DNA of 64,000 bases. Source: Pseudanabaena sp. UWO311. Its GTDB lineage: Bacteria > Cyanobacteriota > Cyanobacteriia > Pseudanabaenales > Pseudanabaenaceae. Shown here piece after piece: positions 6,619 to 57,098 of the stretch. The notes under the pieces are model-generated. The model saw nothing but the letters and a program-made list of their open reading frames with translations, was not told the origin of the DNA and did not search any database. The DNA lies in NCBI RefSeq assembly GCF_006937785.1, contig NZ_SJEE01000006.1, positions 1 to 64,000 on the forward strand. The letters are read 5' to 3'. A program made the translations under genes and the position numbers. Each line of letters starts with the position of its first letter. Within the stretch, counting starts at the first letter, position 1.

Positions 6619-7245
6619 TTAAGAACTAACAATTCCGCGCTTGATCGCAACTAATGTTGCTTGAGTGCGATCGCTTACGCCTAGCTTACTTAAAACACCA
6701 TTTATGTGGTACTTAACCGTACTCTCAGAAATATATAATTCAGTGGCAATTTGTTGATTCGTTTTACCTTGGGCAACCAATTTTAAGACATCCAATTCTC
6801 GATTAGATAATTGAGGGCGATTGAGCCTTTCTGAGAGCTTTTCGCCAACTTCAGGAGGAATATATTTTTTGCCTTCATAAACAGTTTTGATCGCTCTAAT
6901 AATTTCATCGACTGGAGCGTTTTTAAATATATAGCCCTTGGCTCCTGCCTTTAAACCTTTATAGATATCTTCGTCGCCATCGTAAGTCGTGAGCACAATA
7001 ATTTTTGCCTCCGTAAATTCTTGATGAATAGCAGCGATCGCATCAGCTCCACTCATTTCAGGCATTCTTAAATCCATCAAGGTGACATCAGGACGATACT
7101 GGCGAAATAGGGCAACGGCTTCTACTCCGTTATTTGCCTCAGCTACGGTTTCCATATTAGGAGTGTAATCGATCATTAATACCAATCCACTCCTGACAAT
7201 TGGGTGGTCGTCCGCTACCATAATACGGATTGTTTGATCGGTCAT
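6619..7245 (-). CDS. NarL/FixJ family response regulator
   Basis: This is a 208-residue regulator. The receiver (residues 1-120) has the acidic pocket ADDHP and predicted phospho-acceptor D58 in VTLMDLRMPEM, with conserved Thr and Lys further on (VLTTYDG, AKGYIFKNAP). The C-terminal LuxR-type helix-turn-helix is LSNRELDVLKLVAQGKTNQQIA. Its start codon overlaps the stop codon of the five-GAF kinase by four bases (ATGA), so the two are translationally coupled and form a cognate pair. Targets are unknown; the promoter region shared with the neighbouring CDGSH/Dps genes makes those candidates. Confidence 0.95.
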   Translation of the reverse strand: MTDQTIRIMVADDHPIVRSGLVLMIDYTPNMETVAEANNGVEAVALFRQYRPDVTLMDLRMPEMSGADAIAAIHQEFTEAKIIVLTTYDGDEDIYKGLKAGAKGYIFKNAPVDEIIRAIKTVYEGKKYIPPEVGEKLSERLNRPQLSNRELDVLKLVAQGKTNQQIATELYISESTVKYHINGVLSKLGVSDRTQATLVAIKRGIVSS

Positions 7246-10200
7246 GATTTTTGTTCCTCTAATGGAATCTCTACTAAAATTTCTGTCCCTTTACCCAAAA
7301 TACTGTTAATCAATAATTGTCCTCCAATGCGATCGCTCCGTTCAGATATACTCAAAAGCCCAAATCCCCCATTATCTAAATTGGGCTGGAAGCCACAGCC
7401 ATTATCAGCAATTCTAAGTGAAACTTGGACATTCTGATAGGCGAGAACGATCGAAAGCTTTGTTGCCTTAGCGTGTTTTAAAGCATTAGTAATCGCTTCT
7501 TGAGCAAGTTTGAGGAGGTTGTACCCAATCATCGCCGAGACTTGATATTCACTTCCTAAAATCTGTAGGTCAACTTGAGTAGGACAATCGCGGGTTAACT
7601 TCTCGACTAATTGCGCAAGTTTTTCGGCTAAGTTGGCGTATTCTTGGGCTGTAGGATATATTTCCCAGACTGAGCGCCTTGCTTCGGCAAGTCCTGTTTG
7701 GGCGATGTCGTTGATGCGATCTAGGATTGATTCGATCGCAGAGGGATCTTGTTGTAGCATCCATCTGATTACGCCAGTTTGAATTGAAATACTTGTAAAT
7801 GACTGTGCTAAGGTATCGTGAATCTCGCCAGCTAAACGGTTTCGTTCGATATAGAGTGCAGCTTGCTTTGCTTCTTCGGCTCTTTTTAGAAGTTGGATTG
7901 CTAATGTTGCTTGGTGTGCCAGAGCTTGAGTTAACTCTAGTTCGTCCGGTTCTAACAAGCGCTTTCGATCGAAGCGAATAGTGAAGCTACCAATTATTTC
8001 TGACCCCAGCAAGAGAGGGATGCCTAGTAGAGTTTTTATGCCCAATCGTTGCATATGTCTCCGTATGGAAGTAGGTATGTCGGGGCATTCGTCCACCTGG
8101 TAAATCACAGGAACACGATCGCGAATGTGCTTTTTTAACACGAGGTCAGCAGACAAATCTCGACCGCGTATCCATTTCCCTGATAAGAGTGGGGCATTTT
8201 CAGGTATTGCAGGAACAATTTTGCCATCTAAATAGACAGTGTGGATCGCAAAGCTATCCGCGATCGAGTCATAAAACCAAAGTGCAGAGGAAGAGGAACC
8301 TAGCTGCTCTGATGTGACCTTCAGTACATGTCCCAAAGAGCGTTCTAGTTCTGGTTCCGTCGCCAAAACATCGAGAGTCTGTTTGAGAGTAGCATTGGCC
8401 CTAGCCAGCTGAGTCACACGCGCTTCCGCTGCCTGTTCTCGTTCGAGTGCTAGAGCTGCTTGCTTCGATTCTTCTGATAGGAGAATGAGCTGAAGTGCAA
8501 GCGTTGCTTGAGCTGCGAGAGATTTAATAAATTCAATCTCTAATGATGGAAGGTGAGATTTTTCTGTAAAGGCAAATCCTAGCATCCCAATCAGATCTTT
8601 ACCAGCAACCAAAGGAACGGCAGCAATTTCTTGATGCCCCATGCGAGCATGCCATTCAATCACTTCTGGAATGATGCTAATTGGTTCTAAAGCATTCAAA
8701 AACAAAATTTCTTTGTCAATTGAAAATGTGTCCAAAAGTAATGTAATGTTTTCAGCCTCACAGCCTATCTGAGGATATGGGTCGTGGGATTCTTTATTGA
8801 CATAGGGGATCCCACGCTCGACTGCGGCAACGATTTCAGCAGTTTTGGTACTGATGTCAAAGGTGAATAGCATCGCAAATGCTGCACTAATATTTTCGCT
8901 TAGTACAACCAGTAAGTCCTCTAGAAAATGTGAGACGTTTCTTTTACTGGCCAGTTGCTGTAAGCTTTTATTCAATGCTGAGTTGATTTTTTCTAATTGT
9001 GTCGCCCGTTCTTGAGCCGCTTTTTCTCGCACGTTGGCGATCGCAGTATCACGAGTTGTTTCAGCTAATCCTTCCATCTCTATAGCCAGCGATACCTGAC
9101 TTACGAGCGTCCGAATCATTTCGATCTGCTGCGGCGTTGGTGGAATCTCCGAAGCTAGATCGAAACCAATCCAGCCAGTTGTCTCTTCTCCTTTTCGCAA
9201 TGGAACGTATGCGATCGCGCGCGCACCTCTTGATTCGTGATAATGACGAACCTCAGCTATCAATACACTCGTATCGCTAGTTAGCCCCCAAATAAAGTTT
9301 TCGGACTGAATTCGTTCCCAAGGTATAGCCATTGAAGGACTATTCACCGACCAATCACTATCTAAATTGCTGCCAGCAATTATCTGCTCCACACCATCTA
9401 CAATATGCACTTTTACCCGTACAGTTTTACTTGGAGCCTGATAACTCATAAGTCCGATGCCATTGACTCCTAGTGGAGCCATCACCTCAGCGATAGTCCG
9501 TAAAATCTCGACGATAATGGCTTTCGGATCGGTTGCTGTACTCAGTCGTTCGGTACTGCGTTGCAATGTGAAATTCACCAGTTCTAAAACAGCAGCTCGT
9601 TCTTGTGTCACTCGTTTTTGTTCGCGAACGATCGCCACTTGTTTTGCTTCTTCCGCCAGACGGCTTGTCTGCAATGCCAAGGCTAGTTGTGCCGAAAGGG
9701 TTTCCGCTAGGGCAATTTCAGCCTCACTGTAGGGTAATCCTGCTCCTCGATAGATGACCAAAGCACCGTCAGCAGAATTACCAATGAAGCAAGGCACATT
9801 GAGTTCGGATTCCCAACCGCAAGCACGAGTAAAGTCGTCAAATTCTGGCACACAGGTGCCTGCCGCATGGTCGAGTTGTACAGCCCGAGTCCGATGTCTA
9901 TTTGACGTTCCCAAATATTCATCGGATACAGTAAATCCTTCCGCCAATCGAATGATCAGTTCGTATTTATCGGGGTCGAGCGCTAGAATTTCGGTTGGCT
10001 TAAGAACTTGCCCATCGATCAACCAATAGCGTAAATAGATTAGTTCGCCTGAAGAATCAAAGAAAGAACAACTGGTCGCTTGAAAGTTTTCTAATACGAT
10101 TTTTAACACCAGAGGAATAAATTCTTCAACACTTTCAATATTGCCTAAAGCATCGACCGTTTTCTGTAAGGCAGTATTTGCTCGCGCTAAGTGGACAGCC

Positions 10201-10892
10201 CGCTCTTGCGCTGCTTGTTCTCGTTCGCAAGCGATCGCCGCTTGTTTTGCCTCCTCTGCCAGATTGGTTAGTTGAATTGCCAATGCAGCTTGATGCCCTA
10301 GTGCTTGTAGTAATTCAATCTTTTGTTTGTCGATCGGTTCGTTATTAATAAAAGCCATTGCTAAATGACCAAATAGCTTACCTCCAGCAAGCAGCGGCAA
10401 AGCCAGTACCTGCTTGAGACCGCGATCGCGAAGATAAGCAATAGATCCTGCCCAAAATAGATGTGCCTCAGTTTCTATATCAAAAAAACGTGGTTTCTGT
10501 GTCTCTTCCAAAATTGTATGAAACCCTACTTCTGCCGTCAGCATTTCATAGGCAATCGGTGTTTCTTGGATAATTCCATCTTTTTCCACGACGACGGCAG
10601 TACGCAGTACATTTCTCTTTTCATCAAAAAGAATTAGATGTGCTGCATTAGCATTCAGTTGCGCCATTGCTTCCTGTGTAATATAGCCCAAAAACGATGA
10701 TAGATCGGGATTCTCAGCTAGACGTGCAGAAGTAAGTGCGAGTGCATCATTTGCCTTCACTAGTTCAGCTTCTACTAATTTCTCAAGTTCCGATCGCTCC
10801 TGAAATATTGCCAACTCAGTTCTTAGGGCAATGTTTTCTTGCTCTAGTTTGGCAATATGTTCTAGGAGGTTAGCAGTATCGGCGATCGCCAT
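7242..10892 (-). CDS. five-GAF NarL-type sensor histidine kinase
   Basis: This 1216-residue cytoplasmic kinase begins with a short coiled coil. Five GAF domains follow, at roughly 60-210, 252-415, 455-615, 655-815 and 855-1000. They are joined by near-identical helical linkers (EEAKQAAIACEREQAAQERA and variants). The C-terminal kinase is the HisKA_3 type with His1025 in GEIHDTLAQS, an N box (LAQEAITNALKHA), G1 (IADNGCGF) and GFGLLSISER. I see no Cys-His pair typical of a phytochrome GAF, so the domains more likely sense small ligands or redox state. The 5' end of this gene exists again as a remnant at 13287-13443. Confidence 0.92.
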   Translation of the reverse strand: MAIADTANLLEHIAKLEQENIALRTELAIFQERSELEKLVEAELVKANDALALTSARLAENPDLSSFLGYITQEAMAQLNANAAHLILFDEKRNVLRTAVVVEKDGIIQETPIAYEMLTAEVGFHTILEETQKPRFFDIETEAHLFWAGSIAYLRDRGLKQVLALPLLAGGKLFGHLAMAFINNEPIDKQKIELLQALGHQAALAIQLTNLAEEAKQAAIACEREQAAQERAVHLARANTALQKTVDALGNIESVEEFIPLVLKIVLENFQATSCSFFDSSGELIYLRYWLIDGQVLKPTEILALDPDKYELIIRLAEGFTVSDEYLGTSNRHRTRAVQLDHAAGTCVPEFDDFTRACGWESELNVPCFIGNSADGALVIYRGAGLPYSEAEIALAETLSAQLALALQTSRLAEEAKQVAIVREQKRVTQERAAVLELVNFTLQRSTERLSTATDPKAIIVEILRTIAEVMAPLGVNGIGLMSYQAPSKTVRVKVHIVDGVEQIIAGSNLDSDWSVNSPSMAIPWERIQSENFIWGLTSDTSVLIAEVRHYHESRGARAIAYVPLRKGEETTGWIGFDLASEIPPTPQQIEMIRTLVSQVSLAIEMEGLAETTRDTAIANVREKAAQERATQLEKINSALNKSLQQLASKRNVSHFLEDLLVVLSENISAAFAMLFTFDISTKTAEIVAAVERGIPYVNKESHDPYPQIGCEAENITLLLDTFSIDKEILFLNALEPISIIPEVIEWHARMGHQEIAAVPLVAGKDLIGMLGFAFTEKSHLPSLEIEFIKSLAAQATLALQLILLSEESKQAALALEREQAAEARVTQLARANATLKQTLDVLATEPELERSLGHVLKVTSEQLGSSSSALWFYDSIADSFAIHTVYLDGKIVPAIPENAPLLSGKWIRGRDLSADLVLKKHIRDRVPVIYQVDECPDIPTSIRRHMQRLGIKTLLGIPLLLGSEIIGSFTIRFDRKRLLEPDELELTQALAHQATLAIQLLKRAEEAKQAALYIERNRLAGEIHDTLAQSFTSISIQTGVIRWMLQQDPSAIESILDRINDIAQTGLAEARRSVWEIYPTAQEYANLAEKLAQLVEKLTRDCPTQVDLQILGSEYQVSAMIGYNLLKLAQEAITNALKHAKATKLSIVLAYQNVQVSLRIADNGCGFQPNLDNGGFGLLSISERSDRIGGQLLINSILGKGTEILVEIPLEEQKS

Positions 10893-11031
10893 CGTTAGTT
10901 ACCCAAGAATGCCCAAAATGACTTTGGCACAAAGATTTGTATTGATTGAAAGCTACTTTAAAATATCCTAATCTTAACTTTAAGCATTGTCCATCTTTGT
11001 TGACTTGTCATACAGCCTAAATAATCTCCAT

Positions 11032-11068
11032 ACTTAAGTACAGTTTAAGTTTAGCCATCTGGACAAAA
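11032..11068 (+). promoter_or_regulatory. bipartite ACTTAAGTACAG-N16-TGGACAAAA element
   Basis: ACTTAAGTACAG (11032-11043) and TGGACAAAA (11060-11068) are separated by exactly 16 bases. They lie 75 bases before the ATG of a truncated CDGSH gene and about 200 bases before the aldo/keto reductase. The surrounding intergenic DNA is homologous to 13444-13687. Confidence 0.6.
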
Positions 11069-11143
11069 AAATTAAGCCCTCCTGTTAGTGACTCTCTTTG
11101 AGCGTTCCATTATTATGACAAGCATTGTTTAGAAGAATATTCC

Positions 11144-11197
11144 ATGACAAAACTTACTCCATCAGAATCAAAATTTGTAGATAGCGTATTTCCATAG
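11144..11197 (+). pseudogene. truncated 5' remnant of a CDGSH gene
   Basis: AGAATATTCC-ATG at 11144 opens a 17-codon frame ending in TAG. Its peptide (TPSESKFVD) matches the start of the intact CDGSH protein at 13688 (TSSEPKIVD) at both protein and DNA level, and the bases before the ATG are almost the same in both. None of the cysteines remain. It is a scar of a tandem duplication of the control region and its first gene. Confidence 0.75.
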
Positions 11198-11267
11198 CCT
11201 GTTAGGTTTCCATCAATGAATCCAGCAGGCATTCTATGTCCGCTAACAATCAAATAGGGGTAAAACT

Positions 11268-12380
11268 ATGGCTCTTAATACTTACTACACACTTGGAAAA
11301 TCAGGTTTACGGGTCAGCCGCCTAGCTCTTGGCGCAATGACCTTTGGGACAGACTGGGGTTGGGGAGCCGATGAAGGTACAGCTCGTCAGCTATTCAATA
11401 CCTACACTGAGGCAGGTGGAAATTTTGTCGATACTGCCGATCTTTATACAAATGGAATTAGTGAAACTTGGTTAGGAAAATTTACTGCCGAGAGGAATCT
11501 TCGCGATCGCATAGTCATTGCCACTAAGTTTACTTACAATGCTGAAGCTGGAAATCCTAACGCTGGCGGTAACGGGCGCAAAAATATTCTAAGGGCTGTG
11601 GAAGGTTCTCTAAAAAGACTGGGAACAGATTACATAGATCTTTATATTCTCCATACTTGGGACAAAATCACCCCTGTTGAAGAAGTGATGCGAACCATGG
11701 ACGATCTCGTGCGATCGGGCAAAGTGCGTCATGTTGGTTTGAGTGATACCCCAGCTTGGTATGCTGCTCGCGCCCAGACTTTAGCAGAATGGCGTGGGTA
11801 TGAACCTCTATGCACAATGCAATTGGAATATTCTTTGGTGGAGAGAAATATCGAGCATGAGTTTGTGCCTCTAGATACGGAATTAGGCATGGGGATCATG
11901 GTGTGGAGTCCTCTTGCTAGTGGTTTATTAAGTGGCAAGTACAAGCCAAGTGAAAGCGGCTTTACAGGTGAAGGCAGATTAGAAACCACCAAAGGAATTG
12001 CTAATCCTGCATTTCAAAAGTTTAGCGATCGTAACTGGCGAGTTGTGTCTGAACTGGAACAAGTAGCCAAAGAACTCGATCGCAGCATGGCACAGGTAGC
12101 TTTAAACTGGACTGTCAATCGCCCAGGGATTGGTTCGGTAGTAATCGGAGCAACAAAACTTTCGCAAGTACAAGATAATCTTAAATCACTAGATTTTGAG
12201 ATTCCCCATTCATTAGCGAATCGATTGGAAACTGTTAGCCGTCCAGAAGTGAATTTCCCTTACAGTTTCTTTGACTCAGAAATTCAGGGCATGATTCATG
12301 GTGGAGTTACCGTAGGTAATAAACCCGATCGGTATGAGGATAAAGTCGTAATTCGGTCATCAGGAGCAGGAGTGACTTAA
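11268..12380 (+). CDS. aldo/keto reductase
   Basis: This 370-residue soluble NADPH-dependent oxidoreductase has the AKR (beta/alpha)8 barrel. Catalytic-type residues are visible: Asp and Tyr in FVDTADLYTNG, Lys in IVIATKFTY, His in LYILHTWDK. The cofactor end reads SVVIGATKLSQVQDN. It resembles YajO/Gpr-like aldehyde or methylglyoxal reductases, though the substrate cannot be inferred. The ATG follows ATAGGGGTAAAACT. It is the first intact gene after the bipartite element at 11032 and now occupies the position of the deleted CDGSH copy. The F420-type reductase follows. Confidence 0.92.
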   Translation: MALNTYYTLGKSGLRVSRLALGAMTFGTDWGWGADEGTARQLFNTYTEAGGNFVDTADLYTNGISETWLGKFTAERNLRDRIVIATKFTYNAEAGNPNAGGNGRKNILRAVEGSLKRLGTDYIDLYILHTWDKITPVEEVMRTMDDLVRSGKVRHVGLSDTPAWYAARAQTLAEWRGYEPLCTMQLEYSLVERNIEHEFVPLDTELGMGIMVWSPLASGLLSGKYKPSESGFTGEGRLETTKGIANPAFQKFSDRNWRVVSELEQVAKELDRSMAQVALNWTVNRPGIGSVVIGATKLSQVQDNLKSLDFEIPHSLANRLETVSRPEVNFPYSFFDSEIQGMIHGGVTVGNKPDRYEDKVVIRSSGAGVT

Positions 12381-12414
12381 GAAGAAAGAAGATCGCCTAC
12401 ATCAAGCCATGTAA

Positions 12415-12460
12415 CAGATAGATAATTGAAGCGATCGCGCTTAACTCAATTATCTATCTG
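12415..12460 (+). terminator. 15-base inverted repeat built from the HIP1 repeat, possible terminator
   Basis: Arms 12415-12429 (CAGATAGATAATTGA) and 12446-12460 are perfect reverse complements around a HIP1-containing 16-base loop. It lies 34 bases after the aldo/keto reductase stop codon. The left arm is the CAGATAGATAATTGA spacer found in the dispersed HIP1 repeats; here it has acquired a complementary partner. A clear T tract is lacking, so termination is uncertain. Confidence 0.5.
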
Positions 12461-12527
12461 CGGTAATTAGCCTTTAATGGATTATAGATTTCGATTAACC
12501 TAAAGATAAAAGAGGTAAGACTTGAGT

Positions 12528-13196
12528 ATGAAGATAGGATTTTTGGGTAGTGGTAATATGGCGCGAGTACTCGGAGGTGCTTGGTCATTAGCAGGGCATC
12601 AAATCACCTTCGGTTCGCGAGATGCAGCAAAGTCTCGTGAAGTAGCTAAGGGAATTGGAAATGGCGCATCTGGTGGAACAAATGATGAGGTTGCTGAATC
12701 TTGTGAGGTCATTGTCAGCTCTATACGCGCTGTGCCATCAAGTTTTCTAACATCAACCTCAGCCTTGACAGGCAAAGTTATCATAGATTTAAATAATCGA
12801 GATTTTCCTCGTGAGTACAAGCCTGAAGAATTTCTCAATTCTCTAGCTGAAGCAACTCAAAAAGATGTTCCCTCGGCAAAAATTGTGAAAGCATTGAATA
12901 ACCAAGCAATGGAAGTTTTTAACAGCGATGCGGTAGCTCTTAAAGAGGCAGGTATACAAGCTTTCATTGCTGGAGATGATGATCGAGCTAAACAGATTGT
13001 TACCGAGTTACTCAGCGATATTGGGCTTAAGGCTATCGATTTTGGTTTGTTGTCTAATGCATGGTTGTTAGAATTACAAGCGGATATTCTCAGGACTTAT
13101 ATGTTTGCAACTGGAAATTTCTTAGCAACCCCAGGTTTTATTGAGGCACCTCGTGCTGAACCAAGATTTGGAGAGCGTCGTAAAGGTACATACTAA
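12528..13196 (+). CDS. F420-dependent/NADP oxidoreductase-like protein
   Basis: This protein of about 222 residues has an N-terminal Rossmann motif (IGFLGSGNMARVLGGAWS) and the layout of the NADP oxidoreductase coenzyme-F420-dependent family: VIIDLNNRD, AKIVKALNN, IAGDDDRAKQIV. Such proteins reduce small cofactors or act as oxidative-stress NADPH enzymes in bacteria that lack F420. The start is ATG 12528; a TTG two codons upstream, closer to AGAGGTAAGA, is possible. The stop codon is directly followed by a truncated MFS fragment, so the original downstream partner has been lost. Confidence 0.85.
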   Translation: MKIGFLGSGNMARVLGGAWSLAGHQITFGSRDAAKSREVAKGIGNGASGGTNDEVAESCEVIVSSIRAVPSSFLTSTSALTGKVIIDLNNRDFPREYKPEEFLNSLAEATQKDVPSAKIVKALNNQAMEVFNSDAVALKEAGIQAFIAGDDDRAKQIVTELLSDIGLKAIDFGLLSNAWLLELQADILRTYMFATGNFLATPGFIEAPRAEPRFGERRKGTY

Positions 13197-13197
13197 A

Positions 13198-13286
13198 ATG
13201 CCTAACCATTCTAATGCAACGTACTCTCTTCTTACTCGTATAACTCTTCTGGTTACTAGCATGTTGACAATTATGGCAAGTGCCAC
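13198..13286 (+). pseudogene. 5' remnant of an MFS transporter gene
   Basis: From the ATG at 13198 the frame reads LLTRITLLVTSMLTIMASAT. This matches LPTRITLLVASMLTIMASAT of the intact transporter at 15210, with strong DNA identity. Homology stops near 13286 at a junction with the kinase-gene remnant, which runs the other way. Only the first transmembrane segment is left. Confidence 0.8.
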
Positions 13287-13443
13287 GGTACGTAGTACCT
13301 TTCTCTATTGGCATTCATTTGCGACATTGCTTCCTGCATAACATAGCCCAAAAACGATGATAGCTCGGAATTTTTAGGGCAATGTTTTCTTGCTCTAATT
13401 TGGCAATATGTTCTAGGAGGTTAGCAGTATCGGCGATCGCCAT
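13287..13443 (-). pseudogene. internally deleted 5' remnant of the five-GAF histidine kinase gene
   Basis: Reading leftward from CAT at 13441-13443, the DNA repeats the start of the kinase at 10892. It then jumps over about 110 bases, resumes across the block matching 10651-10712, skips about 28 bases more, and ends in sequence matching 10598-10622. No functional protein is possible. It marks where a second kinase copy once stood upstream of the CDGSH operon. Confidence 0.8.
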
Positions 13444-13573
13444 CGTTATAGTTACCCAAGAAAGCCCAAAGTTACTTCGACATTATAATTTGCACTAATT
13501 CAAAGCTAATTTAAATATATTATCTTCATTTTAAGTACTTTCCATCTTGTCATTGAACTTAAATATTTCCCAT

Positions 13574-13610
13574 ACTTAAGTACAGTTTATAGCTGACAAC
13601 TTGGCTAAAA
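13574..13610 (+). promoter_or_regulatory. bipartite ACTTAAGTACAG-N16-TGGCTAAAA element
   Basis: ACTTAAGTACAG (13574-13585), 16 bases, then TGGCTAAAA (13602-13610), 77 bases before the CDGSH start codon. It is the duplicated counterpart of the element at 11032. The intervening sequence has diverged considerably while the 12-base core and the spacing are unchanged. Confidence 0.6.
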
Positions 13611-13687
13611 AATTTAAACCCTTTAGTTGGTGACTCTTTATTAATGTTTTATTATCATCTTTTCTAAGTTATATATGAGAATATCCC

Positions 13688-13966
13688 ATGGCTGAATTTA
13701 CCTCATCAGAGCCAAAAATCGTCGATAAAAAGCCAGTAGTGATGAATCTAGAATCAGGTACTTACTACTGGTGCAGTTGTGGCTTATCTGAAAATCAGCC
13801 TTTTTGTAATGGAGCGCATAAAGGAACTAATTTCCGTCCCGTAGTTTTTGAAGTATCTGAGCCGAAGAAAATGGCTCTATGCCTCTGTAAATATACCGCT
13901 GGAGCGCCAAGCTGTGATGGTTCTCATTTGAAATTGACAGATAACGTAACAGCTAAGTCAGATTAA
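13688..13966 (+). CDS. double CDGSH-type iron-sulfur protein
   Basis: This 92-residue protein carries two CDGSH [2Fe-2S] motifs. The first is CSCGLSENQPFCNGAH (Asn replacing the usual Asp), the second CLCKYTAGAPSCDGSH. Both keep the three Cys and one His ligands expected for the cluster. Related mitoNEET-like proteins take part in iron-sulfur transfer or redox sensing. The gene heads a plus-strand series (Dps, isochorismatase-like hydrolase, MFS, flavodoxin, porin) behind the bipartite element. Dps starts six bases after its stop, so co-translation is likely. A truncated copy is found at 11144. Confidence 0.9.
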   Translation: MAEFTSSEPKIVDKKPVVMNLESGTYYWCSCGLSENQPFCNGAHKGTNFRPVVFEVSEPKKMALCLCKYTAGAPSCDGSHLKLTDNVTAKSD

Positions 13967-13972
13967 AATATT

Positions 13973-14467
13973 ATGTCTCTAACCAAACTCTATGCCAGTC
14001 GCATTGACCTTAAGAGTGAAAATCGTATTCAACTGATTGACCTACTCAATCTAGCCCTTGCTCTCACAATCGATCTTAAAAGTCAAGTTAAACAGGCGCA
14101 TTGGAATGTCAAAGGAATGAGTTTCTTGGAACTCCATCAATTGTTTGATGCTATCGCCGAGCAATTAGATGAGTATGTGGATATGATTGCGGAACGGGTA
14201 ACAGCTCTCGGTGGTGTGGCTCTGGGAACAGTGAGAATTGTCGCTCAAGCTTCCACATTATCAGAATATCCGCTAGAAGCTATATCTGGCAGAGATTGTG
14301 TAATAGCGATCGCCGATCGCTTGGCTCTCTATGGCAAAACTGTACGAGAAGCGATCGATCAAAGCACCGATCTCAAGGATGCTGGAACCGCCGATCTTTA
14401 TACCGAAATTTCTCGCACAATTGATAAATATCTCTGGCTTTTGGAATCTCATTTGATAGAAAATTAG
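13973..14467 (+). CDS. dps: Dps family DNA-protecting ferritin
   Basis: This 164-residue protein has the Dps four-helix pattern. The first-helix ferroxidase His lies in QVKQAHWNVKG, the Asp/Glu ligands in LFDAIAEQLDEYVDMIAERV, followed by ALGGVALGT. The C-terminal helix ends in DKYLWLLESHL. Dps dodecamers oxidise ferrous iron with hydrogen peroxide and shield DNA. Pairing with a CDGSH protein six bases upstream points to iron and peroxide stress. Length is normal. Confidence 0.93.
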   Translation: MSLTKLYASRIDLKSENRIQLIDLLNLALALTIDLKSQVKQAHWNVKGMSFLELHQLFDAIAEQLDEYVDMIAERVTALGGVALGTVRIVAQASTLSEYPLEAISGRDCVIAIADRLALYGKTVREAIDQSTDLKDAGTADLYTEISRTIDKYLWLLESHLIEN

Positions 14468-14600: not shown

Positions 14601-15194
14601 ATGAAAAATAAATTCACAGTTGACAATGCGGTAATGCTCTTGATCGACCACCAACAAGGAACGATTAAACTCGCTCGCAATCTGCCCTATGCAGAAATAG
14701 TCCAAAACACTCGTGCTCTAGCTCGTACCGCCGTAGAAACTGGAATGCCATTAATTTTGACTAGTAGTATGGAAACCAATTTTCAAGGTTTACTGCTAGA
14801 AGATATCCAAAAAATCGCGCCAGATGCCTACGAAAAGCGCATCAAGCGTCCGGGAGTTGTCGATGCATGGGAGTACGCAGACTTCAAAAATGCTGTAGAA
14901 GCAACTGGCAAGAAAAAACTCATCATGGCTGGGTTAACCAACGATGTTTGTATTGTCTATCCCGCAATTAGCGCCGTAGAGGATGGATACGAAGTACAGG
15001 TTGTGGTTGATGCTGGTGGCTCTCCAACGACAATAGCTGACGAAACTTGTCTGCGACGCATGGAAAAGCATGGAGTCACCCTAACTTCAACCAATCAAGT
15101 AATGGCGGAGTTGGCAGTCTCTTGGTCAGAAGATTTTGGACAGAAGATTCAAACAATCATGTATGAAGAAGTTCTTGCGAAATTGATCGAATAG
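14601..15194 (+). CDS. isochorismatase-family cysteine hydrolase (YcaC-like)
   Basis: This 197-residue protein has the catalytic triad pattern of cysteine hydrolases: Asp in LLIDHQQGTI, Lys in the KRIKRPGVVDAWE region, and nucleophilic Cys in MAGLTNDVCIVYPA. It most resembles YcaC-like hydrolases of unknown substrate, not true isochorismatases. It lies between Dps and the MFS transporter on the same strand, 15 bases before the transporter start, and so probably belongs to the same stress or efflux operon. Confidence 0.9.
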   Translation: MKNKFTVDNAVMLLIDHQQGTIKLARNLPYAEIVQNTRALARTAVETGMPLILTSSMETNFQGLLLEDIQKIAPDAYEKRIKRPGVVDAWEYADFKNAVEATGKKKLIMAGLTNDVCIVYPAISAVEDGYEVQVVVDAGGSPTTIADETCLRRMEKHGVTLTSTNQVMAELAVSWSEDFGQKIQTIMYEEVLAKLIE

Positions 15195-15209: not shown

Positions 15210-16403
15210 ATGAAAACAGCGATCGCTTCAAAAGTTAATTCTCTACCTACTCGCATAACCCTGCTGGTTGCTAGTATGTTGACGATTATGGCAAGCGCCA
15301 CGATCGCACCTTCTTTGCCTGCAATGTTAAAGCATTTTGAGTCAGTACCGAACTCCGCATATTGGGTAAGACTAGTACTAACTCTCCCCGCGCTATTTAT
15401 AGCTATCAGCGCTCCAATACTTGGAGTTTTAGTAGATCGGATCGGACGAAAACCACTATTATTTCTATCCCTAATTATCTATGGCTTAGCGGGTAGCTCT
15501 GGATTATGGCTAAACACCTTAGATACAATTATTGTTGGTCGAGCATTGTTAGGAGTTAGCGTCGCAGGGATTTCTATTTCTACAACGGCTTTAATTGCTG
15601 ACTACTACAGCGGAGCAGCTAGAGGAAAGTTTCTGGGTTTACAGGCAGCCTTTAGTTCTTTAGGCGGAGTGGTATTTGTCTCTTTGGGTGGTTGGTTAGC
15701 CGATATTGGATGGCGTAATCCTTTTCTGATCTACTTCGCAGCATTGTTGGTATTGCCTGCGGTCTTGTCTTTTCTATCAGAGCCACCGCGCCAAGATTCA
15801 ACCCAATCTTCTGATCATTCTAGTAATTCCGAAAAGTCTAGTCGCTTGCCATATCTCATTGTTGGTCTAACATTTGCAGCCGCAATGCTAGGTCAGATGG
15901 CTTTTTATACGATTCCAGTACAAATTCCCTTCTATCTTAAGAATTTATTCCAATCCTCTGCTTCTCAAAGTGGAATCGCGATCGCAATTTGCACTCTCGG
16001 TTCTGCCATATCATCTTTTCAATATCAACGAATTAAAGCTAAAACAACCTTTTTTAGTATCTACGGTATTGCTTTTAGCACTATGGCTCTGGGCTTCGGT
16101 TTGATTAGCCTAGGTAGTAGTTTTACAATCGTTGCTTTTGGCTTAGGAACCGTAGGTGTTGGACTGGGGTTGGTGATGCCAAATATGACCTTCTGTCTTA
16201 CTTCCGCTACTCCTGTGAATATGCGCGGCAAGATTTTAGGCGGTTTAACAACTTCTATGTTTTTAGGTCAGTTCGTATCACCTCTCGTGAGTCAGCCTTT
16301 GAGTCTCGCGATCGGCTTGAATGCAACCTATGGTGCTGCGGGAATTGCAATGGTGATATTAGCGATCGCCTTTATGTTTTTGCTGTGGAATTGGAAAGAC
16401 TAA
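15210..16403 (+). CDS. MFS transporter (drug-efflux-like, about 12 TM)
   Basis: This 397-residue membrane protein has a dozen hydrophobic segments. The MFS loop 2-3 signature is VDRIGRKPLL; the central loop near residue 200 is Ser-rich (STQSSDHSSNSEKSS). Composition resembles the Bcr/CflA and DHA1 efflux groups; the substrate is unknown. It closely follows the isochorismatase-like gene and precedes the flavodoxin by 39 bases. A 5' fragment of a second copy lies at 13198, evidence that this gene was part of the duplicated unit. Confidence 0.92.
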   Translation: MKTAIASKVNSLPTRITLLVASMLTIMASATIAPSLPAMLKHFESVPNSAYWVRLVLTLPALFIAISAPILGVLVDRIGRKPLLFLSLIIYGLAGSSGLWLNTLDTIIVGRALLGVSVAGISISTTALIADYYSGAARGKFLGLQAAFSSLGGVVFVSLGGWLADIGWRNPFLIYFAALLVLPAVLSFLSEPPRQDSTQSSDHSSNSEKSSRLPYLIVGLTFAAAMLGQMAFYTIPVQIPFYLKNLFQSSASQSGIAIAICTLGSAISSFQYQRIKAKTTFFSIYGIAFSTMALGFGLISLGSSFTIVAFGLGTVGVGLGLVMPNMTFCLTSATPVNMRGKILGGLTTSMFLGQFVSPLVSQPLSLAIGLNATYGAAGIAMVILAIAFMFLLWNWKD

Positions 16404-16442: not shown

Positions 16443-17018
16443 ATGTCATCTATCGCTATTGTTTATTTTTCTGGCACAGGACATACTCATTTGATGGCTG
16501 AGGCTTTTGCTGAAGGAGCGAATAAGATCGCAGATACTAAAGTTCAACTTTTTAGAATTACTGGTGAGGAAATTCATAACGGACGCTGGCGTAATGAAAA
16601 AGTTTTGGAATCCCTCAATCAATATGACGCGATCGTTTTCGGTTCGCCGACCTATATGGGAGGTGTGGCTGCACAGTTTAAGGCGTTTGTTGATGCTGCT
16701 AGTGGCATCTGGTTCCAACAGCTATGGAAAGACAAATTAGCAGGTGGCTTTACCCATTCAGGTTCTCCTAGTGGAGATAAGCAAGGAACTTTGCTCTATC
16801 TAGCAATTAATGCAGCCCAACATTCCATGATCTGGGTTGGCGCTGGTGAGATGAATCAGAATGGAGTGAATCGTCTAGGTTCTTATATGGGAGTGATGGG
16901 ACAGGCTGTCCCCGACTTATCTGGTACTAAAGCCGTAGAGCTTGATGCTGGCGATCGCTTATCGGCAGAATTATATGGCGAACGCATCGCTCAGATCTCT
17001 AAGAGATGGAAAAACTGA
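16443..17018 (+). CDS. flavodoxin/WrbA-like NAD(P)H:quinone oxidoreductase
   Basis: This 191-residue flavodoxin-fold protein has the FMN phosphate loop YFSGTGHTHLMAEAF at the N-terminus, followed by VFGSPTYMGGVAAQFKAF and GGFTHSGSPSGDKQ, typical of WrbA-type quinone reductases. It would catalyse two-electron reduction of quinones in the cytoplasm. GGAAATAAAG lies before the ATG. Its position in the CDGSH-Dps-MFS series supports a role in oxidative or electrophile stress. Confidence 0.9.
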   Translation: MSSIAIVYFSGTGHTHLMAEAFAEGANKIADTKVQLFRITGEEIHNGRWRNEKVLESLNQYDAIVFGSPTYMGGVAAQFKAFVDAASGIWFQQLWKDKLAGGFTHSGSPSGDKQGTLLYLAINAAQHSMIWVGAGEMNQNGVNRLGSYMGVMGQAVPDLSGTKAVELDAGDRLSAELYGERIAQISKRWKN

Positions 17019-17050
17019 TCAAGCTATCGTACTCAATCTCTTATTTAAAA

Positions 17051-18610
17051 ATGAAGCTCTCAAACCTTAAATTAAATCTCAACCCAAGGCTGCACTATTT
17101 CTTTCTAGCTTTGCTGATAGCTGGGAACTGGGCGATCGCAGATACGAGCAAAGCAGAAGATATTACCGTAAATCAACTATCCGATGTTAAAACTACGGAC
17201 TGGGCTTTTACTGCTTTGCAATCTCTTACGGATCGCTATGGCTGTATCCAGAGCTATCCCAATCGCACCTATCGCGGTAATGTCGCCTTGAGTCGTTTCG
17301 AGTTTGCCGCAGGGCTACAGTCTTGCATCAGTAAACTCGATGAGATGCTCAGAAGCGGACTAAGTGATAAGGTGAGTCAAGATGATCTGAGTACCTTAAA
17401 TCGATTACAAAGTGAATTCACATCAGAGTTAGGAATCATTTCCCAAAAGGTCAATAATCTAGAACAACGTACAGAACAATTAGAAGTCCAAAATTTTTCT
17501 CCGACAACTAAGCTCTCAGGGCAAGCAATTTTTGCAATATCAGCTGGGGGCTTTGGCGGCGATCGCATTCTTTCGCCAACTGGTGCAGTCATCACCCGTA
17601 ATCAACCCAACGTTACCTTTTTAAATCGCTTCTCTATCGATCTCAATACTAGTTTTGTTGGGAAGGATCTACTCAAGATCCGCTTGCTGGCTGGTAGTGC
17701 AGGTGCAAGTGATAGTACATCAGGATTTTTAGAACCAAACTTTGCTAGCGCGCTCGATTACTCCGTTCAAGGTCGTGACAATCAGGTTAGCTTAGCACGT
17801 CTTTATTATTCATTTAATATCGCTGAGGAAGTCCGTCTAACGGTTGCCCCTTTAATGGTGGCTAATGATTTTGTAGATAAAAATCGCTATGCTAATGTCA
17901 GTTTTAATGACTTCTCAACTCAGGCTTTTGTTAATAATTTTATTCTCTTACCTAGACCTTTGGGGGCAGGTATTGTTGCTGAATGGGCTCCTAAGCAACT
18001 TCCTATTCAATTACGTGCCTTATATGTAGCCAATAATGCTAATCGACCAACTGGCTCAGCGATCGTGAATACGTTGCGCTCCACTGAGTCGGCGGAGTTA
18101 CCAGTTTTAATTTTTCCAAATCGTGGCGGTGAACAGGGCTTATTTGGCGATCCCTATCAAGGTGTTGTGGAATTAGAATATTCTCCAGATAAAAAGTTTA
18201 CGCTGCGCTTGCAATATGCTGGAGGAAGGGTAATTGGCAGTAATTTTAATGCTTTTGGGGTGAATTTTGATTGGGGAATTAGCGATCGCTTAGGTATATT
18301 TGGACGCTATGGCTTCAGCAACTACAACAATACAGAGTTTGGGAATATTAGTCCTAATTATTGGATGGCTGGTTTTTCATTTAAGGATCTTTTTACGCAA
18401 GGTTCGATTACAGGGCTAGCGGTTGGTCAACCGCTCATCGTGAGAGAGATTGGGAATGCTTCGCAGACTAACTTTGAAGCTTTTTATAATATTCCGATCA
18501 ACAAATTTATCAGAATTACGCCTCTGGTTCAAGTGATTACCAATGCTGGCAACCGCAATGAGAACGGCACAATTTGGGTTGGAGCTTTACGCACGGTATT
18601 CTCTTTTTGA
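17051..18610 (+). CDS. SLH-domain OprB-type iron-uptake porin
   Basis: This outer-membrane protein of about 519 residues has a signal peptide ending near ADTSKAED. An SLH domain follows (DVKTTDWAFTALQSLTDRYG ... RYRGNVALSRFEFAAGL in outline), then a short coiled coil, and a C-terminal OprB-like barrel ending in the aromatic FSF typical of barrel insertion. Cyanobacterial homologues are annotated as iron-uptake porins. The ATG at 17051 is preferred over one at 17006 because the upstream start overlaps the flavodoxin gene and adds a polar stretch before the signal sequence. It closes the CDGSH-Dps stress series. Confidence 0.9.
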   Translation: MKLSNLKLNLNPRLHYFFLALLIAGNWAIADTSKAEDITVNQLSDVKTTDWAFTALQSLTDRYGCIQSYPNRTYRGNVALSRFEFAAGLQSCISKLDEMLRSGLSDKVSQDDLSTLNRLQSEFTSELGIISQKVNNLEQRTEQLEVQNFSPTTKLSGQAIFAISAGGFGGDRILSPTGAVITRNQPNVTFLNRFSIDLNTSFVGKDLLKIRLLAGSAGASDSTSGFLEPNFASALDYSVQGRDNQVSLARLYYSFNIAEEVRLTVAPLMVANDFVDKNRYANVSFNDFSTQAFVNNFILLPRPLGAGIVAEWAPKQLPIQLRALYVANNANRPTGSAIVNTLRSTESAELPVLIFPNRGGEQGLFGDPYQGVVELEYSPDKKFTLRLQYAGGRVIGSNFNAFGVNFDWGISDRLGIFGRYGFSNYNNTEFGNISPNYWMAGFSFKDLFTQGSITGLAVGQPLIVREIGNASQTNFEAFYNIPINKFIRITPLVQVITNAGNRNENGTIWVGALRTVFSF

Positions 18611-33529: not shown

Positions 33530-34367
33530 TTAGCAGACAGATAATTGAGGTGATCGCCTAGAATAAAACCAAAAAGCAGAAGTTGAAAGACTATGTTGAA
33601 ACCCTGAATGAAGTTGCTTCACCTTGCTTTCATCTAGATCTTGATAAGCTGCTCCCATTGCTACGATAAGTGGTAAGGAATGCTCAATGCTTGGATGAGC
33701 GAGAGAATAAGACTCATGGAACTGAAAGTTCAGAATAGCAGATGTTCTCTCCTGAATGTTTTTTGTAGTTAACATATCAGTAACCCAACTATCAAATTTT
33801 CGACTCCACTCCTTGACAATATTTGGATTTTCTCCACTTAAAAAACTTTTTCGGAACTCTGCCTGATTATGAGTCACACCTCCACTACAAATAATCAGTA
33901 CGCCTTCATCTCGCAAGGATTGTAGAGTTAGTCCCAATTTAAAGTGAAGTTGCAGATCGTAGTCTTGTTGCAGTGAAACTTGTAAAATTGGAATATGAGG
34001 CTCTGGAAACATCAGTGAGAGTGGAACCCACGCTCCATGATCTAAACCGCGATCGCGATCGATCTCACTTTCAAACCCATCATGAATTAGGCTGTCAACA
34101 ATTTTGTCAGCAAGCTCAGGAGACCCTTTAGCAGGATATCGATCCGCGTAAAGCGTCTGCACGGGATGGTCATGAATTGTGGTGGGAGATTGAGTTGCTG
34201 TCACTGAGAATGTCGGCGCGATGAAATGGGCTGATATACAAACAATCGCACGAGGCTGGATGTTTTGCAGCATTACACCTATTTCTTGCAAACGTTGATG
34301 GGTACGGACTCGTAGTGTAGACCGAAGCTCCATGCCCAACAAAAATAACGGGTGTTTTCGATTCCAT
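33530..34367 (-). pseudogene. DODA-type (LigB) extradiol dioxygenase with a frameshift near its N-terminus
   Basis: The natural start is the ATG at 34365-34367, reading ESKTPVIFVGHGAS, the usual N-terminus of 4,5-DOPA dioxygenase-like proteins with the first metal-binding His. This frame stays readable to about SPYP. The rest of the protein continues in another frame (LQEIGVMLQNIQPRAIVCIS, SAHF, DHGAWVPL, GGVTHNQ) to 33530. A one-base or two-base indel near 34285-34295 separates the GHG His from the rest. It is 69 bases downstream of an SDR on the same strand. An assembly error is the alternative. Confidence 0.75.
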
Positions 34368-36915: not shown

Positions 36916-36996
36916 AGATCGCCATCAGCAAACCTTTAACAGATAGATAATTCAGTCGATCTCCTAGAAATCACGAATCACAGTAATAGCAATCGC
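36916..36996 (+). repeat. HIP1-bounded repeat unit
   Basis: A diverged copy containing AACAGATAGATAATTCAG and CTAGAAATCACGAATCACAG spacers, upstream of the AraC gene. Confidence 0.65.
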
Positions 36997-45742: not shown

Positions 45743-45792
45743 AGCGATCGCCTCCAGCAAACCCTTTAGCAGATAGATAATTGAGGCGATCG
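45743..45792 (+). repeat. HIP1-bounded repeat unit
   Basis: The third spacer type (CCTTTAGCAGATAGATAATTG) between HIP1 boxes in the convergent gap before the LysR gene. Confidence 0.7.
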
Positions 45793-45795
45793 CAC

Positions 45796-46662
45796 CTAAT
45801 CCACCTCCCAATTATGACTTGCCGCATAATGACAAAAACGCTCCACAATTTCCGAACTTTGCTGCTGTCGCCACTTGATGCCAATCGTTCGTTGAAAATC
45901 TAAATCAACAATTGGAATATAGACAATACCAGTTAGACCGCGCCATTTTGGCATAACGCTAATTCCCAGCCCCGCCTTTATCCAAGAGATCACCCATTCT
46001 TCTCGACTAGCGCGATAGATTACCTTAGGATGAATATTCTTCGCTTCCAGAATATCGCACTCCCTTTCGGCAAATTCGCAATTGATGCGATCAATAAATG
46101 GTTGTCCGTCTAATTCCATCAGGCGTACAGAAGTTCGTTGGGCAAAGGGATGATTAAGCGGTACTGCTAACTGCAAGGATTGACTAAAAAGCGCGAACGA
46201 GGATTGCGGTTCTTCGCGATCGCCCAAAACCGTTAGCGCCACATCAACTTCTCCTTCTTCTAACCAATCCCGCAATTTTTCTTGCGTCCCATCCCGCAAT
46301 TCAATGGTTACGCTAGGGCAATCCTGCTGAAACCTGCTAACCAATTCCGCTAACTCCGCAACCCGTATGGTTGTGAGCGCACCGAGCCTTAAAATTGGCT
46401 GTTCGTGAAATCCCTTCAGTTCGTGTAGCGCCGCTTGATACTGCGCCATGATGATTGTCGCTTTCTCCAAGAAAGAACGCCCTGCTTGCGTTAAAACCGT
46501 GCGTCGCCCACCGCGCTCAAATAGGGAAACCCCTAATTCCTGCTCCAATTTCTTAATGCCCGTTGACAGAGAAGGCTGGGATAAATATAGACGCTCGGCT
46601 GCTCGCGAAAAATTTCCAGTCTCGGCGATCGTCAAAAAGTAACGTACCTGATATAAATCCAT
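45796..46662 (-). CDS. LysR family transcriptional regulator
   Basis: This 288-residue regulator has the OxyR/CbbR-like N-terminus (YFLTIAETGNFSRAAERLYL, PSLSTGIKKLEQELGVSLF). The C-terminal domain contains two Cys (INCEFAERECDI), one of which could be a redox Cys, but the OxyR-specific spacing is not shown here. It is divergent from the peroxiredoxin gene at 46815, a pairing seen for peroxide-responsive LysR regulators. Confidence 0.9.
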   Translation of the reverse strand: MDLYQVRYFLTIAETGNFSRAAERLYLSQPSLSTGIKKLEQELGVSLFERGGRRTVLTQAGRSFLEKATIIMAQYQAALHELKGFHEQPILRLGALTTIRVAELAELVSRFQQDCPSVTIELRDGTQEKLRDWLEEGEVDVALTVLGDREEPQSSFALFSQSLQLAVPLNHPFAQRTSVRLMELDGQPFIDRINCEFAERECDILEAKNIHPKVIYRASREEWVISWIKAGLGISVMPKWRGLTGIVYIPIVDLDFQRTIGIKWRQQQSSEIVERFCHYAASHNWEVD

Positions 46663-53627: not shown

Positions 53628-53676
53628 GCGATCACCTACAACAAGCCCTTTAAGAGATAGATAATTGAGGCGATCT
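53625..53676 (+). repeat. diverged HIP1-type repeat unit
   Basis: The third spacer type (CCTTTAAGAGATAGATAATTG in outline) between GCGATC boxes, after the HxlR gene. Confidence 0.6.
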
Positions 53677-56903: not shown

Positions 56904-57082
56904 GGCGATCGCAAAGAAAAATATCGTTGAAGCGATCGCCTATAACTCACGACTCACAGTAATAGCGATCGCCTTTAGGAGATAGATTGTTGATGCGATC
57001 GCCTAAAAATCACGGCTCACGGTAATAGCGATCGCAATACCGCAAACCCTTTAATAGATAGATAATTGGGGCGATCGCCTTG
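56904..57082 (+). repeat. HIP1-bounded intergenic repeat block
   Basis: Three modules with all three spacer types in the gap between the LuxR and methyltransferase genes; no gene is visible in this 372-base gap. Confidence 0.85.
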
Positions 57083-57098
57083 AAATCAAGAATGATAG

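Follow-up and report, generated by a model that had tools for sequence, protein, structure and literature searches.

Remnants of a probable tandem duplication and an apparent exchange of cargo genes at a two-component locus of Pseudanabaena sp. UWO311

Genes and features of the locus

The window considered here is a stretch of 64,000 nucleotides of the Pseudanabaena sp. UWO311 genome. It harbours a two-component system facing a stress-type group of genes that is conserved in relatives: CDGSH, Dps, an isochorismatase-type hydrolase, an MFS transporter, a quinone-reductase-like flavoprotein and a porin. Part of this locus is present twice, and the parts are as follows (coordinates are those of the window; other genomes are cited as G followed by a number, records as L).

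6619-7245, minus strand: RR, NarL/LuxR-type response regulator (Pfam Response_reg and GerE; 99.5% amino acid identity to G016)
7242-10892, minus strand: HK, multi-GAF HisKA_3 sensor histidine kinase (Pfam); the duplicated unit has its left edge in the 5' end of this gene (about 10600)
10893-11143: P1, divergent promoter region (alignment with P2 and relatives)
11031-11040: palindrome TACTTAAGTA, copy 1, in P1; proposed operator of RR
11144-11197, plus strand: what copy 1 retains of CDGSH (17 codons and a stop)
11249-12396, plus strand: aldo/keto reductase block, apparently captured (ORF 11268-12380; Pfam Aldo_ket_red; DNA 91% identical to G009 and 90% to G008, there as far as 12384)
12391-12470: dispersed palindromic repeat between the two apparently captured genes (13 other places in the genome, E <= 0.006)
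12483-13205, plus strand: F420-reductase-like block, apparently captured (ORF 12522-13196; DNA 87% identical to G194, 88% to G116)
13223-13287, plus strand: MFS', right edge of copy 1 (86% identical to 15240-15302, 89% to the G016 MFS gene)
13288-13443, minus strand: HK', left edge of copy 2 (two internal gaps, broken frame)
13444-13687: P2, promoter region (alignment)
13573-13582: palindrome TACTTAAGTA, copy 2, in P2
13688-13966, plus strand: CDGSH iron-sulfur protein, intact (Pfam zf-CDGSH)
13973-14467, plus strand: Dps (NCBIfam NF006975, 202 bits for a cut-off of 114)
14601-15194, plus strand: Iso, isochorismatase-family hydrolase (Pfam; 99% amino acid identity to G008)
15210-16403, plus strand: MFS transporter, intact (Pfam MFS_1; 97.5% amino acid identity to G016)
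16443-18610, plus strand: WrbA-like (flavodoxin-fold, quinone-reductase-like) protein and OprB porin (Pfam, NCBIfam; OprB starts at 17006)

With its GAF-HisKA_3 kinase, a regulator made of a receiver and a GerE domain (Pfam), a divergent target operon and a conserved palindromic site, the locus resembles NarL/LuxR-type two-component systems. It departs from the known ones in that the NCBIfam models listed all miss their cut-offs, be it for RR (25 models listed of 104) or for HK (0 of 8 reach it). The WrbA-like gene also scores under its NCBIfam cut-off. A literature search returned no description of this regulator, of its targets or signal, of the palindrome or of the locus.

Two copies of a control region and one copy in relatives

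The region lying to the left of the CDGSH gene, which comprises the 5' end of HK, the divergent promoter and the 5' end of CDGSH, recurs at 13288-13730. An earlier note on this DNA had proposed a repeat of 10598-11197 at 13287-13740, and alignment bears it out. Compared with the whole 5.2-Mb genome, the segment 10560-11270 has, besides itself, only two matches, 13371-13727 (75% over 364 query nucleotides, E 5.2e-64) and 13307-13372 (88%, E 1.7e-16); this whole-genome search found no third copy of the P1 region. A repeat search resolves the similarity into 10820-10897/13371-13448 (97% over 78 nucleotides), 10647-10717/13307-13377 (86%), 10896-10962/13449-13515 (79%) and 11004-11116/13546-13658 (72%). 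Both searches place the copies in direct orientation. Homology starts at about 10600/13288 by alignment, and at 13304-13307 by local searches.

The content of each copy is also as the same note had read it. Copy 2 retains promoter and CDGSH gene next to an internally deleted piece of the kinase 5' end: HK' is 156 nucleotides long, about 137 of the 293 nucleotides of 10600-10892 being missing, in two gaps. Copy 1 retains the kinase together with the 17 codons of CDGSH, MTKLTPSESKFVDSVFP followed by a stop, of which about 14 align. The third fragment is indeed the 5' part of an MFS gene (13225-13287/15240-15302, 86% over 63 nucleotides), with its first codons gone and the remainder of the gene gone too, and it abuts copy 2. 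A conserved mini-protein encoded by HK' is ruled out: the HK frame is left after codon 24, and the open reading frame has 42 codons.

The junction between the copies is informative. MFS homology stops at 13287, which corresponds to 15302 in codon 31, and HK homology starts at about 13288, around codon 98, with 0 to 2 nucleotides shared; the right end of a unit (MFS 5') is thus joined to its left end (HK 5'), while HK is intact to the left of the junction and MFS intact to its right. A tandem duplication running from HK 5' to MFS 5' predicts precisely a cut MFS 5' end joined to a cut HK 5' end, and the junction in the window fits. The order HK <P1> CDGSH'...MFS' joined to HK' <P2> CDGSH-Dps-Iso-MFS is, as far as sequence can tell, what a single tandem duplication joined without homology would leave. 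Tandem duplication of a unit with kinase, CDGSH and MFS, as first suggested, is supported, provided that the unit is narrowed to the span from kinase 5' end to MFS 5' end. The deletions then assumed in each copy hold for the two internal pieces lost from HK'; the simplest reading of the truncations of HK' and MFS' is that they mark the edges of the unit.

The RR-HK loci of G005, G008, G010, G016, G019, G024 and G027 were compared, to which G009, G013 and the second contigs of G010 and G008 were added. The syntenic region is present once in G016, G005 and G019, in the order RR-HK <> CDGSH-...-MFS-...-WrbA-OprB, and G010 has the same order split over two contigs; WrbA-like gene and OprB follow downstream in the window as in these four genomes. 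The locus is partial in G027, with RR-HK <> CDGSH-Dps (truncated)-Iso, and in G008, with RR-HK <> Dps-Iso-MFS (the MFS gene internally deleted, at a contig end), where no CDGSH gene was found at the RR-HK locus. In G024 only RR and a short HK are present, and HK is absent from the corresponding place in G009; there, around 8083-8334 of L095, no RR or HK appears, only a 41-nucleotide RR match between hydrolase and MFS genes. Summarized over relatives, the order is RR-HK <promoter> CDGSH-(Dps)-(Iso)-MFS-WrbA-OprB. Among the named records that the CDGSH protein matches, four (L034, L035, L036, L039), all Pseudanabaena, carry two or more further cluster genes as well. HK finds some match at E <= 0.001 in 74 of 97 genomes, own included, most of the matches listed covering the kinase end only. 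None of the 38 genomes of the order that were searched has the double structure or an intermediate in the form of a plain duplication.

Between CDGSH and MFS, G016 still has traces of Dps (codons 111-153, E 7e-21) and, more weakly, of Iso (codons 168-195, E 4e-4), which makes Dps-Iso an old cargo. The order CDGSH-Dps-Iso-MFS is thus probably ancient, and copy 2 of the window has it whole. Two further observations concern relatives. The N-terminal sensor region of HK seems to have been swapped among lineages: its DNA is matched by G008 (87%) and G027 (84%), but the loci of G016, G005, G019 and G010 do not match it at DNA level, while RR is 99.5% identical to G016. In G008 the Iso-MFS 5' end exists in two differing versions, each on its own contig (L075 1-300 and L098 6600-7140), with different internal MFS deletions; a second, independent duplication is possible there, as are mixed strains in a fragmented assembly.

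Origins of the inserted genes and of the second copy

What now separates the two copies is a mosaic. Its blocks correspond to G009 DNA (11249-12396, 91%), to G194 DNA (12483-13205, 87%, the homology extending beyond the stop codon of the F420-reductase-like gene; 12494-13198 is 88% identical to G116) and to MFS genes (13223-13287). The boundaries are clean at 11249, 12396, 12483, 13205 and 13223, against different genomes, and the stretches 11198-11248, 12397-12482 and 13206-13222 fall outside the matched blocks.

By family, both inserted genes encode nucleotide-dependent reductases. At E <= 1e-60 the aldo/keto reductase is found in 7 of 26 genomes of the genus, counting its own. Its identity is 79-94% in G009, G008 and G013 alone, and 52-53% in the other three. 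In G009, G008 and G013 it sits in a different gene context (read, in G008, up to 66 bases past the gene, where a 4.3-kb contig ends); an AraC-type regulator lies near it in G009 and G008, and none is among the G013 open reading frames listed. The F420-like gene is restricted to 1 of 26 genomes of the genus at E <= 1e-30 (its own). In the class it reaches 25 of 388 genomes at E <= 1e-40, own included; nine of these others, all from other families, have it at 76-88% identity. Its product scores 50.5 bits against the NADPH-dependent F420 reductase model npdG (TIGR01915), under the cut-off of 149.8, so that the label must be limited to 'F420-reductase-like'.

Comparison with relatives indicates that the cargo of copy 1 was swapped for these two unrelated genes, of separate origins, and not merely deleted as had been supposed. 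The aldo/keto reductase is known from other contexts in the genus, and the F420-reductase-like gene would have been acquired from another lineage. Between the two, a fold of -25.4 kcal/mol (z -5.0) is computed for the segment 12405-12475, with the hairpin at 12415-12460. Lying behind this strong hairpin repeat, the F420-like gene may be expressed less, or separately. Further copies of the dispersed palindromic repeat lie at 36916-36961, 45746-45799, 53630-53675 and 57030-57089. Where synteny with the G008 locus MscS-[AraC-type regulator]-aldo/keto reductase ends, there is a further, weak copy (33533-33557, E 1.7), and the repeats may for this reason have aided movement of the reductase.

How the second copy arose has to be weighed against the divergence of the two promoters. 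In the intergenic region P1 and P2 share 175/240 positions (73%), P1 and G027 211/251 (84%), P2 and G027 178/240, with 42 changes specific to P2, 18 to P1 and 15 to G027. In HK fragment b, by contrast, P1 and P2 share 71/73 positions, and each shares 68/73 with G027. The closest relative of P1 is thus P2 by the HK fragments and G027 by the intergenic region. The site patterns of the two parts differ (Fisher p 0.008, with sites taken as independent), and P2-only changes amount to 1/73 versus 20/124 (p 0.0006). Since intergenic P1 is nearer to G027 than to P2, a plain duplication within the lineage followed by even drift is not proven. Relaxed constraint on the useless HK side of P2 combined with gene conversion of the HK fragment could possibly account for the contrast, and so could import of a diverged copy. 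The HK' block 13371-13448, frame-broken, is still 97% identical to the functional HK, beside a region at 77%, and gene conversion is possible there.

Import would mean merodiploidy: the divergent locus of another strain came in by transformation or conjugation and, through partly illegitimate recombination, ended up next to the resident copy, P1 and P2 differing from the start. The intergenic identities speak for it, as does the resemblance of P1 and the HK N-terminal part to G027 and G008, when the flanking genes resemble G016 (amino acid identity 99.5% for RR, 97.5% for MFS, 95.8% for WrbA). Such events have been reported or proposed in other bacteria, merodiploidy by transformation being described in PMC3784515, and gene displacement in PMC5361080. 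Against it, the HK fragments place P1 nearest to P2 (97% and 89%) and not to G027 (93% and 87%), and relaxed constraint on the dead HK side can explain the long P2 branch on that side (20 P2-only changes, 6 P1-only, 1 G027-only). We give this import a minor yet appreciable chance, and favour tandem duplication within the lineage with replacement of cargo, which we hold to be the probable course of events.

A history that does away with duplication altogether would see copy 2 as the end of a composite insertion, with aldo/keto reductase, F420-like gene, MFS' and HK' brought as a block. Several unrelated blocks do stand side by side, two of them separated by a dispersed repeat, but MFS' and HK' follow each other in exactly the order and orientation of a tandem duplication junction, flanked by an intact HK to the left and an intact MFS to the right, and the captured genes stem from different genomic contexts; such an insertion is most improbable. 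As for an assembly artefact or chance similarity, both are refuted by copies that are 72-97% identical, with E 5e-64, on one continuous contig: copies that are not identical do not come from a duplicated read path.

The favoured history, tandem duplication in the lineage, would thus begin with an ancestral locus RR-HK <promoter> CDGSH-Dps-Iso-MFS-WrbA-OprB. One duplication of about 2.1 kb, from around codon 98 of HK to around codon 31 of MFS, with at most 2 nucleotides of junction homology, would account for the structure observed. Later, the cargo of copy 1 (CDGSH past codon 14 or so, Dps, Iso and the start of MFS') would have been exchanged for two genes of separate origin. This type of event is already published. 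In the case presented in PMC11111574, promoter capture by spontaneous tandem duplication activates horizontally acquired genes: as here, an illegitimate tandem duplication makes a second copy of a promoter, and a foreign gene comes to stand behind a resident promoter. There, however, it is the duplication that creates the fusion, under selection, whereas here the captured genes appear to replace the cargo of one copy, selection not being observed. The account of Vibrio T6SS clusters in PMC5361080 describes displacement of effector genes that leaves remnants, proposed to proceed via homology-facilitated illegitimate recombination. It has in common with our locus a conserved anchor, insertion of new cargo and persistence of old genes as fragments; the genes differ, and the anchor is here a two-component promoter with its target operon. 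What the present locus adds is its clear anatomy, together with a regulator of which the literature searched gave no description.

A palindrome kept in both promoters

The palindrome TACTTAAGTA occupies corresponding places in P1 and P2, 103 and 105 nucleotides upstream of the CDGSH start. The window has 2 sites for 0.04 expected, a number reached by 1 of 100 shuffles. Its extended form TACTTAAGTACNGNTT is found exactly only at P1 and P2 in the 5.2-Mb genome, with two more sites at one mismatch. A first pattern with extra outer bases gave no match with one mismatch allowed, since each of the two sites in the window has two mismatches to it.

Among genomes of the order, TACTTAAGTACNG has 22 matches in 11 of 38, which make 18 distinct sites, four being read on both strands. 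An overall excess is not supported, as the reversed-pattern control gives 18 matches; totals being nearly equal, they prove nothing, and placement is the informative part. Eight of the 18 sites adjoin HK in this very promoter (G000 twice, G005, G008, G010, G016, G019, G027), so that the palindrome accompanies HK in 7 of the 8 genomes with an RR-HK locus examined, own included; it is absent from the stretch read in G024, despite RR and the short HK. Five more adjoin related genes, namely a DUF1400 hydrolase (in G005 with an SDR gene, in G010 and in G008), an HlyD-type gene (G008), and, in G013, a GAF-domain gene with an RR-like start after it. The remaining 5/18 are elsewhere. In G008 (L153 1501-3013) a second copy of the palindrome stands just behind RR, ahead of the HlyD-type gene. 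From its placement, the palindrome is probably the operator of the neighbouring NarL-type regulator. Pairs of sigma-70-like boxes also lie at corresponding places in P1 and P2; their total in the scan, 10, does not exceed that of shuffles (8.2, sd 2.9), nor does that of the terminator scan, both scans being used only for shared positions.

Since both copies retain promoter and palindrome, the two regulated gene groups side by side foreseen by the earlier note are plausible. One HK-RR signal would switch both, CDGSH-Dps-Iso-MFS from P2 and the new reductase, or reductases, from P1. Judged from families, a response to oxidative or electrophile stress is suggested by the combination of Fe-S protein, Dps, quinone-reductase-like protein, efflux and reductases. 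A bolder reading would make the locus a recurrent site of duplication and capture, where a two-component stress switch repeatedly copies or moves its promoter and gains enzyme genes in this family. The captures would then be the two reductases here, the HlyD-type gene and second Iso-MFS end in G008, and the hydrolase and SDR genes in G005 and G010. We regard this reading as rather unlikely; were it true, the regulon would grow by copying its control region, not by evolving sites from scratch.

For Pseudanabaena-type cyanobacteria, the locus yields a candidate operator for a GAF-kinase/NarL system standing beside CDGSH, Dps, efflux and reductase genes. It may also be a natural and legible case of a regulon gaining targets, its control region having been doubled, the genes of one copy exchanged, and a rare palindrome kept in both.
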